This document shows, in pieces, positions 3,348-37,640 of a stretch of DNA of 64,000 nucleotides. Within the stretch, counting starts at the first letter, position 1. The number at the start of each line of letters is the position of its first letter. This DNA is from Robiginitomaculum sp. (GTDB taxonomy: Bacteria; Pseudomonadota; Alphaproteobacteria; Caulobacterales; Maricaulaceae), in the NCBI GenBank assembly GCA_030949705.1, contig JAUZSF010000001.1:1-64000 (forward strand). The letters are read 5' to 3'. The translations under genes and the position numbers were made by a program. A model generated the notes under the pieces. That model worked only from the letters and a program-made list of their open reading frames with translations, made no database searches and had not been told where the DNA came from.

Positions 3348-4772
3348 TCACGCCTTGATATGCAGAGGTTGGCCAAGGGCGGCCATGGCACTTTCGGCAA
3401 AGCCTTCGGATAAGGTTGGGTGCACATGAATGGTCCCGGCAATGTCTTCCAGACGCGCCCCCATTTCCAGTGCCAGGGCAAATTCACCCGACAGCTCAGC
3501 CACATGCGCGCCAACCGCATGAATGCCCAAAATAACATGATCGGATTTGCGCGCCGTGACGCGCACAAAACCGCCATCACTGCCGCCTTGCATGGAAAGT
3601 GCTTTGCCCAGCGCCGCAAGAGGGAATTTGCCGGTGATAACGTCCTCGCCGGCGGCTTTGGCCTCGTCGGGGGTCAGACCCACGCCAACGATTTCCGGCT
3701 CGGTAAAGCAGACGGCGGGGATGGCCACCGGGTCAAAACGTGCCCGATGCCCGGCCAGAATTTCGGCCACCATTTCGCCCTGCGCCGTGCCTTTGTGGGC
3801 GAGCATCGGCTCGCCGATAAGGTCGCCAATGGCATAGACCCCGCGCATGGCGGTGGCACATTGATCATCTACGCGCACAAAGGGGCCGTCCATATCGACG
3901 CCCATATTTTCCAGCCCCCAGCCGGCGGTTACGGGCTTGCGGCCCACGGCCACCAGGACTTTTTCGGCGGCGATTTCCTGAACCTTGCCGTCCTTGTCTT
4001 CAAATTCAATGCCGGTTTTGGTCAGGCCCTTGGCCTTGGACGAGAGGTGCATATCCACCCCATGGGTTTTTAACCAGCGGGATACGGGCCGGGTCATGGC
4101 CACATCATAAAGCGGCAATATCCGGTCCAGGGCTTCGATAAAGCTGACCTTTACGCCGAGCTTGGCAAAGGCAATGCCCAGCTCCAATCCGATATAGCCC
4201 GCCCCCACCACAGCCAGAGTTTTGGGCAGTTTGTCCAGTTCCAACGCGCCGGTAGAAGAGATAACGCGCTCATCAGAAAAGGGCAGAAATGGTAATTCTA
4301 CTTCGGTGGAACCGGTGGCCAGCACCACGTTTTGTGCCTTGATGGTGACAGCTTCCCCGTCTTGCAGCGTCACCGTGCAGGTTTTGGCATCGGAAAATTC
4401 CGCCCAGCCGTTCAGCACTTCTGCCCCGGCGGATTTGAGCAGCATGCCAACCCCCGAGGTCAGCTTGCCGACCAGATCATCTTTCCAACTTGTCAGCGCC
4501 TTCATATCCACTTTTGGCTTGGCACAGCTAATGCCCATGGCGGGCGTGCTGGCATGATCCGAGATTTCTGCAAACCGACTGGCCGCATGGATCACCGCTT
4601 TGGAGGGGATACAGCCCCGGTTCAGGCAGGTGCCGCCAAGACCGCTTTTGTCCACCAGAATGACGCCCAGGCCCAATTGCGCGGCGCGAATGGCGCACGG
4701 ATAGCCCGCCGGGCCACCGCCAATGATGAGAACATCAGTGTGTTTGGTTTTGCTCATAACCGGGGCGCTCAC
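3348..4772 (-). CDS. lpdA: Dihydrolipoyl dehydrogenase (E3) of the branched-chain 2-oxoacid dehydrogenase complex
   Basis: A 474-residue FAD disulfide oxidoreductase that re-oxidises the dihydrolipoyl group of E2 using NAD+. The FAD-binding GGGPAG is at 18-23, and the redox-active pair is C49/C54 in GGTCLNRGCIPSK. The NAD-binding Rossmann motif VVGAGYIGLELG lies near 197-208, a second FAD motif GVYAIGDL near 320, and the C-terminal dimer-interface base pair is in HVHPTLSE. All key residues are present. Its start overlaps the E2 stop by four bases (ATGA-type), so it is the last gene of the bkd operon and its partner is that complex rather than the pyruvate or 2-oxoglutarate complexes, although E3 may be shared. 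Confidence 0.93.
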   Translation of the reverse strand: MSAPVMSKTKHTDVLIIGGGPAGYPCAIRAAQLGLGVILVDKSGLGGTCLNRGCIPSKAVIHAASRFAEISDHASTPAMGISCAKPKVDMKALTSWKDDLVGKLTSGVGMLLKSAGAEVLNGWAEFSDAKTCTVTLQDGEAVTIKAQNVVLATGSTEVELPFLPFSDERVISSTGALELDKLPKTLAVVGAGYIGLELGIAFAKLGVKVSFIEALDRILPLYDVAMTRPVSRWLKTHGVDMHLSSKAKGLTKTGIEFEDKDGKVQEIAAEKVLVAVGRKPVTAGWGLENMGVDMDGPFVRVDDQCATAMRGVYAIGDLIGEPMLAHKGTAQGEMVAEILAGHRARFDPVAIPAVCFTEPEIVGVGLTPDEAKAAGEDVITGKFPLAALGKALSMQGGSDGGFVRVTARKSDHVILGIHAVGAHVAELSGEFALALEMGARLEDIAGTIHVHPTLSEGFAESAMAALGQPLHIKA

Positions 4773-6043
4773 ATAAAGAGGGTTGCAGGGTTTTCCAGCG
4801 CGGTTTTCACCCGCTGGATCATCAGGGCCGCGTCATAACCATCGACAATGCGATGATCAAAGCTGGAAGACAGGTTCATCATCTTGCGTGGGGCAAAGGC
4901 CCCATCCTGCCAGACCGGGCGGATTTGCAGCTTGTTGACGCCGATTATCGCGACTTCGGGGGCATTGATCACCGGGGTGGAGGCAATACCGCCCAGCGCC
5001 CCCAATGAGGTGATGGTAATGGTCGAGCCGCTCAGCTCGTCTTTATGGGCCTTGCCATCGCGTGCCGCTGTGGTGACCCGGGCAATCTCGCTTGCCAGGG
5101 TCCAGATGTCCATGGCCTCGGCATGTTTCACCACCGGTACCATCAGGCCGTTGGGCGTTGCCGTGGCAATGCCCATATGCACCGCCTCAAACTTGGTGGC
5201 CACGCCCGCTTCGTTATCGTAATGCGCATTGGCGTTTGGAAAGTCCGGCAGCACTTTGATCAGCGCCATGGAGAGGAATGGCAACAGGGTCAGCTTGGGC
5301 TGGTCCTCTGTGCGATTGGCATTCAGATGCGCGCGCAAAGTTTCCAGCGCTTCCATATCCACCTCTTCGACATAGGCAAAGTGCGGGATGGTGCGTTTGG
5401 AATGGGCCAGGTTTTGTGCAATTTTACGGCGCAGGCCGATGATTTTTTGTGTGGATGTGCCGGTGCGTTTGGCACGGCCGGTATGGCTCGCGGCACGCGC
5501 GGTAAGGCGGCCACCGGCAGCAATAAAATCCTCAAGATCCTGATGGGTGATGCGCCCGGCCGGTCCGGTGCCCGGTACGTTGGCCAACTCAATGTCTGCC
5601 TCCAGTGCGGCTTTGCGCACGGCGGGAGAGGCGAGGGGTTTAGTATTAGATGTTGCGCCACCCTTCGAGGCGCCTTGCAGGCGCACCTCAGGATGAGGCG
5701 TTGGGGTGGGTTCAGGATGAGGTTTTTGGGGCGCCGGTTCTGGCTTTGGTTCTGGCACGGGTTTCGCCTGTACTGCGCTTTCTTCTTCCACCGCACCGGC
5801 ACCATCGGTTTCAATGGTGACGATCACCGTGCCAACGGCCAACACATCGCCCGGCTCGCCGGTGATGGATTTTACCACGCCCGTAACCGGCGAGGGAATT
5901 TCCACGGTGGCCTTGTCGGTCATGATATCCACAAGGTTATCATCTTCGGCAACGCGGGACCCGACTTTGACATGCCATTCGACAATCTCCGCCTCGACCA
6001 CGCCTTCGCCAACGTCCGGCAGTTTAATGCTCAGCAATCCCAT
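4769..6043 (-). CDS. bkdB: Dihydrolipoyl acyltransferase (E2) of the branched-chain 2-oxoacid dehydrogenase complex
   Basis: A 424-residue E2 core subunit that transfers the acyl group to CoA. Domains in order: one lipoyl domain (1-80, lipoylated K44 in MTDKATVEIP); a Pro/Glu-rich linker (about 82-136); a peripheral-subunit-binding domain (137-177, ASPAVRKAALEADIELANVPGTGPAGRITHQDL); and a catalytic domain (about 195-424) with the active-site DHRIVDG near the end. Residues 117-130 of the linker (HPEVRLQGASKGGA) are the translation of a palindromic DNA repeat also found between genes at 37.5 kb. The gene abuts E1 upstream (start one base after the E1 stop) and overlaps E3 downstream, so the three are surely co-transcribed. 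Confidence 0.93.
   Translation of the reverse strand: MGLLSIKLPDVGEGVVEAEIVEWHVKVGSRVAEDDNLVDIMTDKATVEIPSPVTGVVKSITGEPGDVLAVGTVIVTIETDGAGAVEEESAVQAKPVPEPKPEPAPQKPHPEPTPTPHPEVRLQGASKGGATSNTKPLASPAVRKAALEADIELANVPGTGPAGRITHQDLEDFIAAGGRLTARAASHTGRAKRTGTSTQKIIGLRRKIAQNLAHSKRTIPHFAYVEEVDMEALETLRAHLNANRTEDQPKLTLLPFLSMALIKVLPDFPNANAHYDNEAGVATKFEAVHMGIATATPNGLMVPVVKHAEAMDIWTLASEIARVTTAARDGKAHKDELSGSTITITSLGALGGIASTPVINAPEVAIIGVNKLQIRPVWQDGAFAPRKMMNLSSSFDHRIVDGYDAALMIQRVKTALENPATLFM
5658..5699 (-). repeat. Palindromic repeat unit captured in frame inside the E2 linker
   Basis: On the minus strand the unit starts CCTCATCCTGAGG, continues GTGCGCC-TGCAA-GGCGCC (a hairpin) and ends TCGAAGGGTGGC. The same unit occurs as an inverted pair at 37443-37539. 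Its length (42) is a multiple of three and it adds residues 117-130 to the disordered E2 linker without breaking the frame. A partial extra copy of its first 11 bases lies just upstream in the gene (the KPHPEPT part of the linker). Confidence 0.75.
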
Positions 6044-8323
6044 TTAAGCCTCCAGCGTTTCTTTGAGCGCGCGCATGACACGGGCCTGACCCGGGAAATA
6101 TTCCCATTCATGGGCGTGCGGGTAAGGGGTATCCCAGCCGGTGACGCGCTTGATCGGTGCTTCCAGGGCGTAAAAGCACTCTTCCTGGATTTGTGCCATC
6201 AGTTCGGCCCCAAAGCCCGAGGTGCGCGGGGCTTCGTGTAGAACCACACAGCGCCCGGTCTTGTTCACCGATTTGGCAATGGTTTCCATGTCATAGGGGA
6301 TCAGCGTGCGCAGGTCGATCACCTCGGCATCAATGCCCGCAAGGCGCGCCGATTCGAGGGCCACATGCACCATGGTGCCATAGGCCACCACGGTCAGCGC
6401 GCTCCCTTCGCGCACTACATCGGCCTTGCCCAAAGGCACGGTATAATGACCGGTGGGTACGGCGCCTTTTTCGTGGGCCGACCAGCTTAAGGCCGGTTTG
6501 TGTGGGTCGCCGTCAAAGGGGCCGTTATACAGCCGCTTTGGCTCAAAAATCAGGACCGGATCATCGCTTTCACTGGCCGCGATCAACATGCCCTTGGCGT
6601 CATAAGGGTTGGACGGCATGGTGATGACCAGGCCCGGAATATGGGTGAAAAACGCCTCTGGCGACATGGAATGGGTCTGGCCACCATAAATGCCGCCGCC
6701 GCACGGTGTGCGCAGCACCAAAGGTGCACTGAACGCGCCGGCGGTGCGATAACGCAGGCGCGTTAACTCGGATACGATCTGGTCAAACCCTGGGAAAATA
6801 TAGTCGGCAAACTGAATTTCTGCAATCGGGCGCATCCCATTGGCGGCCATGCCAATGGCCATGGCGACAATGGCCGCTTCGTTAATCGGCGTATCGAACA
6901 CTCTGGTTTTGCCGTATTTTTCCTGCAGGCCCTGGGTGCAGCCAAATACTCCGCCAAAATAGCCGGCATCTTCGCCAAAGGCGCAAACGCGCTCGTCGCG
7001 TTCCAGCAAAACATCGTGGGCCGAATTGATCGCCTGGATCATGGTCATGCGTGCCGTTTTGCTCATGATCAAACCCCCCAGGTCCTGACGTTGGCGGCGT
7101 AGGTGCCAGGGCTGTTCCACAAACACATCCTCGAACATGGTGGGCACGGGAGAGAGCGGCCCATCACGCAAGGTGCCATAGCTTTCGGCGGTTTTATAAG
7201 AGGCCAGCACTTCTTTGCTGAGAGCATCGGTTAAGGCCTCATGGCGGGCCTCGTCCCATTCCCCAAGCGCGATGAGATGGTTTTTCAGGCGTTCCACCGG
7301 ATCGCCCAGGGGCCAGGCCGCGGCTTCTTCCTTGGGGCGATACCGCGAAGGATCATCCGAAGTGGAGTGGGCATCAGCGCGATAGGTGACATGCTCGATC
7401 AGGGTGGGGCCGTGCCCGGCGCGGGCGCGATCGGCGGCCCATTGCGTTACCGCATAGACAGCCAGAAAGTCATTGCCGTCCACGCGTAATGTGGCCAGGC
7501 CATAGCCAATGCCCTTGGCCGCAAAGGTGGCGTTCAACCCGCCGGCAATGCCGGCAAAGGACGAGATGGCCCATTGATTGTTGACCACGTTCAAGATCAC
7601 CGGCGCCTGATAGGTGCTGGCCAGGGTGCAGGCGCCATGAAAATCGCCTTCCGCCGTGGTGCCATCCCCCACCCACGAGGCGGTTACCGTATCCTCGCCG
7701 CGTGCCGCACTGGCCATGGCCCAGCCCACAGCCTGGGGAAACTGGGTGCCCAGATTGCCGGAAATGGAGAAGAAATTACCTTCCTTCCAGGTGTAATGGA
7801 TCGGTAATTGCCGCCCTTTCAGATTGTCTTTGGCGTTTGACAGGCAATGGGTCATCATTGCCACCATGTCCCGATCCCGGGCAAAAAGAAGCCCCTGTTG
7901 GCGATAGGATGGGAATAACATGTCCTCAAACCGAAGGGCCATGCCAGCGGCACAGGCCACGGCCTCTTCGCCGCGGGCCTTCATATAAAAGGAAATTTTG
8001 CCCTGGCGTTGCAGCTTTAACATGCGGTCATCATAGAGCCGCGTTTTCAGCATCACATGCAAGCCCTGGCGCAGGGTTTTGGGCGATAATGCAGGATCCC
8101 ATTGCCCTTGCGCCTGATGCTCGCTATTCAATACGCCTATGAGGGCATTTGCCAGCATATGAGTGTCTTTGGCCGGGCAATCCGGATCAGGCCGTGTAAC
8201 GGGAATACCCCGTGCCAGCCCCAAGCTCGAAAAGTCCGGTTTTTCGCCGGGGCGGGCCGAGGGCTCGGGAACGGTAAATCCGGCTCTGTTGCGTGATGGC
8301 GCATGGGTCATAGGGTCACTCAT
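6044..8323 (-). CDS. bkdA: Branched-chain 2-oxoacid dehydrogenase E1, alpha and beta subunits in one frame
   Basis: The thiamine-diphosphate-dependent decarboxylase of the bkd complex. Residues 1 to about 415 match E1alpha, with the ThDP motif starting GDGTTAEGDFHGA and ending near NNQWAIS. Residues from about 420 match E1beta (MSKTARMTMIQAINSAHDVLL..., GEDAGYFGGVFG). E1alpha and E1beta are separate genes in the Pseudomonas bkd operon. Here they are joined by QDLGGLI across a C6 run at 7074-7079. With five C, alpha would end LGV-stop and beta would start at ATG 7066 two bases later. The fusion is thus probably a one-base artefact, and two subunits (6044-7066 and about 7067-8323) are likely real. 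Divergent Lrp gene upstream. Confidence 0.9.
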   Translation of the reverse strand: MSDPMTHAPSRNRAGFTVPEPSARPGEKPDFSSLGLARGIPVTRPDPDCPAKDTHMLANALIGVLNSEHQAQGQWDPALSPKTLRQGLHVMLKTRLYDDRMLKLQRQGKISFYMKARGEEAVACAAGMALRFEDMLFPSYRQQGLLFARDRDMVAMMTHCLSNAKDNLKGRQLPIHYTWKEGNFFSISGNLGTQFPQAVGWAMASAARGEDTVTASWVGDGTTAEGDFHGACTLASTYQAPVILNVVNNQWAISSFAGIAGGLNATFAAKGIGYGLATLRVDGNDFLAVYAVTQWAADRARAGHGPTLIEHVTYRADAHSTSDDPSRYRPKEEAAAWPLGDPVERLKNHLIALGEWDEARHEALTDALSKEVLASYKTAESYGTLRDGPLSPVPTMFEDVFVEQPWHLRRQRQDLGGLIMSKTARMTMIQAINSAHDVLLERDERVCAFGEDAGYFGGVFGCTQGLQEKYGKTRVFDTPINEAAIVAMAIGMAANGMRPIAEIQFADYIFPGFDQIVSELTRLRYRTAGAFSAPLVLRTPCGGGIYGGQTHSMSPEAFFTHIPGLVITMPSNPYDAKGMLIAASESDDPVLIFEPKRLYNGPFDGDPHKPALSWSAHEKGAVPTGHYTVPLGKADVVREGSALTVVAYGTMVHVALESARLAGIDAEVIDLRTLIPYDMETIAKSVNKTGRCVVLHEAPRTSGFGAELMAQIQEECFYALEAPIKRVTGWDTPYPHAHEWEYFPGQARVMRALKETLEA

Positions 8324-37442: not shown

Positions 37443-37539
37443 CCTCACCCTGAGGCGGCGCGCAGCGCCCTCGAAGGGCGCACGGCCAGGCGGCGTTTGC
37501 ATCCTTCGAGGCTCCCTTCGGTCGCACCTCAGGATGAGG
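37443..37539. repeat. Inverted pair of the palindromic unit also found in the E2 gene
   Basis: Two copies of one roughly 40-bp unit face each other. The first begins CCTCACCCTGAGG and ends CTCGAAGGGCGC on the plus strand. The second, on the minus strand, begins CCTCATCCTGAGG and ends CTCGAAGGATGC. Together they could form a long cruciform in the gap between the nitrilase-family and NCS1 genes. The minus-strand unit aligns with the copy at 5658-5699 (HPEVRPKGASK here, HPEVRLQGASK in E2 when translated). Confidence 0.75.
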
Positions 37540-37562
37540 TGATGAGAAAACGTTTCGCCTCT

Positions 37563-37640
37563 TGTCATTGCCCGGTTTATCCGGGCAATCCAGCCTTATT
37601 TTGTTTTTGCTGGATTGCCGGGACAAGCCCGGTAATGACA
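37563..37640. repeat. Intergenic palindromic element, copy 2
   Basis: Same element as 2901-2980: starts TGTCATTGCCCGG, ends CCCGGTAATGACA, with GCAATCCAG/CTGGATTGC arms and hairpins around CCCGGTTTATCCGGG and CCGGGACAAGCCCGG. It lies 24 bases beyond the inverted repeat pair and 6 bases before the stop of the nitrilase-family gene, where it may act as a transcript-processing or stabilising structure. Confidence 0.8.

Follow-up and report, generated by a model that had tools for sequence, protein, structure and literature searches.

Palindromic repeat units translated in frame in the E2 linker of a Robiginitomaculum genome and in linkers of related species

The E2 gene and its linker

The analyzed window, i.e., the whole 64,000-nt stretch of Robiginitomaculum sp. 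(assembly GCA_030949705.1, contig JAUZSF010000001.1, positions 1 to 64,000 of the forward strand), carries a gene for the E2 acyltransferase of a 2-oxoacid dehydrogenase (Table 1). It is flanked by an E1 ORF (6044-8323, minus strand) on one side and an E3-like ORF (3348-4772, minus strand) on the other. This operon layout, used here in place of a family model, suggests that the enzyme is of the branched-chain (BCKDH) type. Pfam analysis distinguished three domains, all intact: lipoyl (residues 6-77), E3-binding (136-171) and catalytic (196-424). Among named genomes, the nearest E2 proteins are those of Robiginitomaculum sp. MAGs, followed by those of Maricaulis, Woodsholea, Oceanicaulis, Glycocaulis and Marinicauda.

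The linker between the lipoyl and E3-binding domains, the place that bears palindromic units in sister species as well, contains a complete palindromic unit of a long type, to which the preliminary description had assigned a few additional flanking bases (5658-5699). The unit is translated as PHPEVRLQGASKG, inside PHPEVRLQGASKGGA, with the frame open. Just upstream of it lies the head half of a further unit, a weak match (E 0.14) to the nhmmer models described below; the same stretch, PHPEPTPTPHPE, is present in the related genome G005. The near-identical inverted pair noticed earlier between genes at 37443-37539 is also present, and its second unit lies in the same strand sense as the E2 unit.

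Table 1. Features of the E2 gene and related repeat units in the window
Feature	Position	Strand	Description
E2 acyltransferase gene (2-oxoacid dehydrogenase)	4769..6043	-	424 aa; ORF listing and Pfam
Linker, lipoyl to E3-binding domain	5636..5803	-	residues 81-136; borders set by motifs
Long-type palindromic unit in E2 linker	5662..5698	-	CCTCATCCTGAGG-TGCGCCTGCAAGGCGC-CTCGAAGG; inner stem GCGCC/GGCGC; folds at -14.5 kcal/mol (RNA parameters)
Head half of a unit (CCTCATCCTGAAC) in the same linker	5710..5722	-	translated PHPE; 2 mismatches
Intergenic unit of the same family	37443..37477	+	one head mismatch
Intergenic unit of the same family	37503..37539	-	32/37 identical to the E2 unit

The repeat family in the genome and the genus

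The genome to which the window belongs (G000; 2.83 Mb, 29 contigs, 92% complete) was found to carry 40 exact copies of the long type (pattern CCTCATCCTGAGGN{5,35}TCGAAGG) and 9 exact copies of a short type (CATCCTGARCNNGTCGAAGG), with no match to the reversed pattern in either case. The proposal that the E2 segment belongs to a repeat with copies elsewhere in the genome was thus borne out. Within the window alone, the 13-base head gave five matches (at most 2 mismatches) vs. 1.4 expected, which is less striking than the genome count. The inner part of the units is variable, with 34 distinct segments among the 40 long-type copies. The long type occurs in all eight genus members searched (1 to 16 copies). 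Of the 18 genus genomes, 13, G000 among them, have the short type (0 to 69 exact copies); outside the genus, it occurs in two of the 19 genomes searched, both of the same order (9 and 20 copies).

Eight of the nine neighboring pairs of exact copies in G000 (at most 150 bp apart) have their CCTC ends directed inward, with a spacing of 19-26 nt in seven of them and 120 nt in one. When decayed partners (within 60 nt) were included, 29 of the 49 own copies were partnered on the inward-CCTC side and 5 on the other; the corresponding figures for G005 are 30/59 and 10/59. The intergenic pair of the window has its CCTC ends outward, opposite to most of the exact-copy pairs. Its second unit is one of the two best-scoring matches to the E2 unit in the genome, and all five differences between them fall in the inner stem. 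Beside this pair, at 37561-37640, there is a different inverted palindrome pair, TGTCATTGCCCGGTTTATCCGGGCAATCCAG ... CTGGATTGCCGGGACAAGCCCGGTAATGACA, which, with its TGTC-AT stem and CCA tail, by eye comes closer to the description of CGTC-type REPs than the studied unit does.

According to a codon-usage score, for which 39 long window ORFs served as the training set, and to Pfam checks for part of the proteins, 46 of the 49 exact copies lie outside coding-like frames. The remaining three touch genes: one lies in E2, one in carB, and one at the end of an M15 peptidase gene. The spread into coding regions, suggested in the preliminary description, is therefore real and narrow.

Units in lipoyl-domain genes

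Nhmmer models, built exclusively from copies of G000 and G005 outside coding-like frames (55 short, 38 long), were used to search 36 distinct lipoyl-domain genes of the genus: (i) 17 E2 genes of the window type, (ii) 11 PDH E2 genes and (iii) 8 PDH E1-beta genes. The PDH genes derive from 14 loci, of which L274 and L275 gave no parsed gene and L277 only one, while PDHE2_L310 (= L269) was dropped; scans of the whole loci L274, L275 and L277 revealed no unit at E ≤ 0.01. All 24 distinct stretches found at E ≤ 0.001, which come from close kin and do not represent independent events, are located in linkers (borders placed by motif, to within a few bases), and so are all 30 found at E ≤ 1. The linkers make up 5,895 of the 45,996 bp searched (13%), and 16 of the 36 genes carry a stretch at the stricter threshold. 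Short units in plus orientation all use the HPE..VEG frame, and those in minus orientation all use the LRQAQDE frame. Purifying selection may be the cause of this restriction to linkers in the genes tested.

All three lipoyl genes tested in G000 carry units. The unit of E2 is of the long type, and that of PDH E2 is a decayed copy of this type whose core is CCGG (E 2.7e-6). PDH E1-beta has a fragment of a short-type unit (E 0.0002) as well as a copy of a second palindrome, CCTCACCC...CCCTCTCCC...GGGAGAGG. Exact copies of the latter number 12 in the genome (control 0); among the eight looked at, only the PDH E1-beta copy lies inside a well-supported gene.

The search was extended to 80 E2 loci of named genomes, of which 72 were parsed. 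At E ≤ 0.05, stretches were found only in five genus members (the same genes as in the lipoyl set) and in Marinicauda salina, whose E2 linker contains an exact inverted pair, ARSFETPASPAPQDEG...APHAEERATASVSKREG. A slightly looser pattern has 48 copies in the M. salina genome (control 0), two of which constitute the E2-linker pair. Since several assemblies agree and this named strain has a pair within the linker, the possibility of a pure MAG artefact was dropped. The E2 linkers of L084 and L085 (Alkalicaulis satelles and an alphaproteobacterium) contain the peptides PPPPAGEV and SPASGGG/SPAGGGG, which, judged from their sequence, perhaps represent a further translated palindrome pair.

Comparison of E2 linkers between species

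Short-type units at E ≤ 0.001 occur in the E2 linkers of G002, G005, G004, G003, G010 and G017. In the first five of these genomes, an ILRQAQDE-like unit is placed near the start of the linker and an HPEPVEG-like unit near its end; the linker of G017 has the end unit and a changed start unit, and that of G007 a decayed end unit. In addition, G004 holds a decayed long-type unit, and the linkers of G002, G010 and G017 contain an in-frame CCCCGG palindrome. Plain linkers with no clear units were found in G011, G008 and seven members of the other half of the genus. Because G011 and G008 lie inside the clade, loss or repeated gain must be assumed.

The segment of the window is absent from the other 29 E2 loci compared, a part of all genomes with a matched E2 gene (G004 has the decayed long-type cousin), so it is not a shared element of related E2 proteins, a circumstance that would have spoken against the insertion proposed earlier. 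In a tree based on E2 and its flanks with the linker removed, G000 pairs with G002 (97/97), next to G005 and G007; G000, G002 and G005 are among the rows flagged in this tree for unlike letter composition. These four genomes share the stretch ACC CCA ACG CC(T/G) CAT CCT GAG, and after CAT CCT GAG the sequence continues as the long type in G000 and as the short type in G002, G005 and G007. As a shorter unit of related sequence (HPEPVEG) is found there in the closest species, one type probably replaced the other, and the sequences make it most likely that a short-type unit in the G000 linker was exchanged for a long-type one. The unit had been described as adding 14 residues in frame; it is indeed in frame, but the tree favors a replacement between unit types over a simple addition, since a shorter related unit occupies this place in G002, G005 and, decayed, in G007.

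Genus-wide, unit-bearing E2 linkers are somewhat longer than the others (8 vs. 9 linkers, P 0.03, not corrected for kinship). An E2-linker unit is present in 6 of the 7 genus members with at least 9 exact short copies vs. 1 of the 10 others (Fisher P 0.004, with the cut-off picked after seeing the data and kinship uncorrected; rank test P 0.01). G010 has linker units yet no exact short copy and one long copy in its genome, and G007 has 31 short copies, yet its E2 unit is decayed.

Origin of the E2 unit

In our judgment, the E2 segment is with good probability a copy of a REP-like family occupying an older site, at which a short unit gave way to a long one. A chance or codon-bias likeness of a Pro/Glu-rich linker to the repeat was dropped as practically negligible: PHPE, found twice, is plausible as a linker peptide, but all 37 bases of the unit fit the pattern with 40 genomic matches and none in the reversed control, and the unit matches the model built without in-gene copies at E 1.7e-9. 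It is also quite improbable that units are kept in linkers for a function, as an mRNA hairpin slowing the ribosome at a domain boundary or as a protein-binding DNA site. Domain boundaries are hit repeatedly, by at least three palindrome kinds, and the inner segment of the E2 unit is more stable than all but 1.5% of mononucleotide shuffles. Such a function is, however, at odds with the plain linkers of 9 of the 17 genus members in this E2 and with the decay of linker units (G007 E2, PDH E1-beta of G000). Moreover, only 17 of the 34 distinct inner segments beat 95% of the shuffles; other long-type inner segments have weaker or interrupted stems, and the commonest one (5 copies) forms no stem by standard pairing.

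The remaining alternative, that a long-type unit was newly inserted into E2 in this species, independently of the units of its relatives, we consider unlikely. The long type is the commoner one in G000 (40 vs. 9 exact copies), and among the 30 E2 loci it occurs only in this species and, decayed, in G004. On the other hand, the boundary of the long-type sequence coincides with CCTCATCCTGAG, the head of the short unit of the sister species, and the G000 linker (56 aa) is no longer than that of G002 (62 aa) or G005 (57 aa); the linker of G007 has 45 aa. What speaks against the exchange is that an identical donor for the E2 unit was not found, the closest copies in the own genome differing at 5 or more of 37 positions. 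Exchange and loss followed by reinsertion give indistinguishable outcomes in these data.

The REP-like palindromic family (CCTCATCCTGAG - variable inner stem - TCGAAGG) is mostly intergenic, with many copies arranged as inverted pairs about 20 nt apart. According to the exchange scenario, its copies would occasionally reach genes and persist only at places where an open frame is kept and the added peptide does no harm, i.e., in interdomain linkers, post-membrane linkers and protein ends. An inverted short-type pair (ILRQAQDE ... PHPEPVEG) may have entered the E2 linker once, in an ancestor of about ten related species. In the species of the window, the upstream arm would then have been lost and the downstream unit swapped for the long type, with the shared head as one end of the exchange. 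We infer that this change occurred by recombination with another copy via the shared head rather than by excision and new insertion. The movement of the units, including their original mobilization, is a candidate process suggested by the sequences.

CarB, TPR proteins and M15 peptidase

A comparable situation was found in a protein whose motifs suggest CarB (carbamoyl-phosphate synthase). The comparison covers 29 of 30 loci (L367 missing). The joint between the two halves of this protein is (i) short, with neither palindrome, in G002, G007, G008 and G010, (ii) occupied by a long-type inverted pair with an open frame in G011, G004 and G017, and (iii) occupied by another palindrome-like pair (TPPPHAGEE...SSPVHGG and similar) in G005, G003 and G001. 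The joint is thus a single site with presence or absence of two repeat kinds. The corresponding place in G000 holds a long-type pair, and carB is read there in three overlapping frames (L017 1-3040 = G000:C14:2303-5342), which reflects either an assembly indel or a real frameshift; in the sister genomes the frames are open (1123-1134 codons). That the second kind of pair also occurs outside these genes is suggested by uncounted BLAST matches obtained with a similar stretch from the PDH E1-beta gene of G003. By eye, occupancy of the joint in nine genomes (L345-L353: G000, G002, G011, G004, G005, G017, G003, G007 and G001) does not follow the E2 tree.

In G005, for which 58 of the 59 short copies (one on contig C78 left out) and 1 of the 9 long copies were examined, 12 of 59 touch coding-like frames and 11 lie inside them: one in E2, one in the PDH E1-beta linker and nine in TPR proteins just after the membrane helix (helix by eye). 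For G007, where the examined set comprised 28 of the 31 short copies and one of the four long ones, 5 of 29 were flagged; three of these lie in TPR proteins and one at an M15 peptidase end, and the fifth is doubtful. A short copy outside this sample, C5:5320, lies in a PDH E2 linker. L231 (G005, at an ORF start) and L332 (G007) are doubtful as in-gene units, possibly reflecting 5' extensions or spurious frames, and were not counted.

In G000, the M15 unit supplies the C-terminal residues of a Peptidase_M15_4 protein of 154 aa; this protein end alternates between the types, with ILRQAQDEGAK in G007 and PSRFPSVAPQDEGVN in G000. The TM-TPR proteins show the same alternation of short and long types. 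A family of membrane TPR proteins of approx. 630 aa (L206, L219, L220, L234, L236-L265) is expanded, with 17 matched stretches in G005 and 24 in G007; no match was found in G000 and G002. Translated palindromic pairs, which may be short, long or mixed in type, are frequent though not universal in the post-membrane linker of this family.

Tentatively, the disordered interdomain linkers of central enzymes in this genus and its kin (three lipoyl-bearing subunits and CarB), together with the post-membrane linkers of TPR proteins, may be viewed as permanent docking places for several unrelated palindrome families, such linkers evolving by exchange with the genome-wide repeat pool rather than by point mutation.

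Mobilization

The Y1_Tnp domain (PF01797) is absent from the 92%-complete G000. Among the Y1_Tnp loci of relatives (flanks up to 1.5 kb, some ending at contig ends), all ten compared lack a unit of either type; four further matches were left out. Mobilization by a RAYT in G000 was therefore rejected, and no mobilizing enzyme for the family was identified in G000 or at the Y1_Tnp loci of relatives. One of the relatives' genes, L182 (G007:C32), encodes a RAYT-like Y1 transposase whose neighborhood encodes a repeated peptide, YGDSNRNY, and contains no unit of the family studied; this transposase may therefore have repeats of its own.

Comparison with known palindromic repeats

Intragenic REPs of the GTAG and CGTC types have been listed, and their tolerance in flexible linkers, maybe as neutral insertions, has been suggested in the parts of PMC3733652 compared here. 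The CGTC superfamily of alphaproteobacteria was described in 2013 as having no associated transposase (PMC3733652). The units studied resemble CGTC REPs in being short, mainly intergenic palindromes that frequently form dimers and sometimes occur in genes. The traits given for CGTC REPs in the same source are a CGTC tag (or TGTC/CCTC), a stem of 8-9 bp starting from AT, a loop of 4-5 nt, an unpaired 3-base tail, mostly CCA, and dimers mainly with tags outward (HH), inward ones (TT) being rare. The units begin with CCTC, a variant listed there, although the long-type pattern itself required CCTC. The short type, ATCCTGAG-CTTGT-CGAAGGAT, fits the stem only if two G.A pairs are allowed, and the long type of the window has a longer, variable stem (>9 bp). 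The CCA tail is lacking, GGAT being followed mostly by GGN, GAN or AAN (by eye), and eight of the nine pairs are directed inward, the 37443 pair being outward. Since they differ in tail and pair orientation, the units were not filed in the CGTC superfamily. They share imperfect palindromes, inverted pairs and high copy number with the RAYT-mobilized GTAG REPs (PMC3733652), but no GTAG end was seen, G000 lacks Y1_Tnp, and the RAYT gene is not flanked by the repeat at any of the ten relatives' loci.

Rickettsia palindromic elements (RPEs), reviewed in PMC10969869, are about 150 bp long, encode a conserved peptide and lie inside ORFs in nearly half of the cases (PMC3733652, PMC10969869); the CGTC-4 and CGTC-1 repeats of Rickettsia conorii have been equated with RPE-4 and RPE-6 (PMC3733652). 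The RPE-like character attributed to the E2 unit in the preliminary description was upheld in one respect, the in-frame translation of a palindromic family in a flexible linker. Like RPEs, the units occur in frame in unrelated genes (E2, PDH E2, PDH E1-beta, CarB, TM-TPR proteins, M15 peptidase), but they are shorter (approx. 35-55 bp, pairs approx. 100 bp) and only 3 of the 49 exact own copies lie in or at the end of genes; this comparison is by published description.

As in the known systems, the underlying principle is that palindromes are tolerated in frame. In-frame REPs and RPEs are already known, and what stands out here, measured against the compared parts of both papers, is the recurrent use of the same interdomain linkers, the substitution of repeat types for one another and the free-living lineage. 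The case of recB, with different REPs at about the same site in two Xanthomonas species (PMC3733652), hints at recurrent linker use with type exchange, which was otherwise not found in those parts of PMC3733652 and PMC10969869. The main-text parts of PMC3733652 compared, which do not include its target-ORF list (Additional file 3), mention neither lipoyl linkers nor CarB. In the open-licence literature searched, no paper was found on the repeat letters and translated peptides, on translated palindromes in linkers, or on palindromic elements in carbamoyl phosphate synthase.

Significance

The E2 finding is one instance of a broader pattern. With a repeat in this linker and other repeats in the same linkers of relatives, repeated DNA seems to renew protein linkers. 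In this free-living lineage, with an exact case in the named strain Marinicauda salina, the idea that palindromic DNA supplies proteins with new sequence can be traced through empty, occupied and exchanged sites of one gene across near species. There is also a warning for protein annotation: peptides like HPELVEG, LRQAQDE or SPQPSPQGEG may stem from translated repeats instead of representing conserved motifs.
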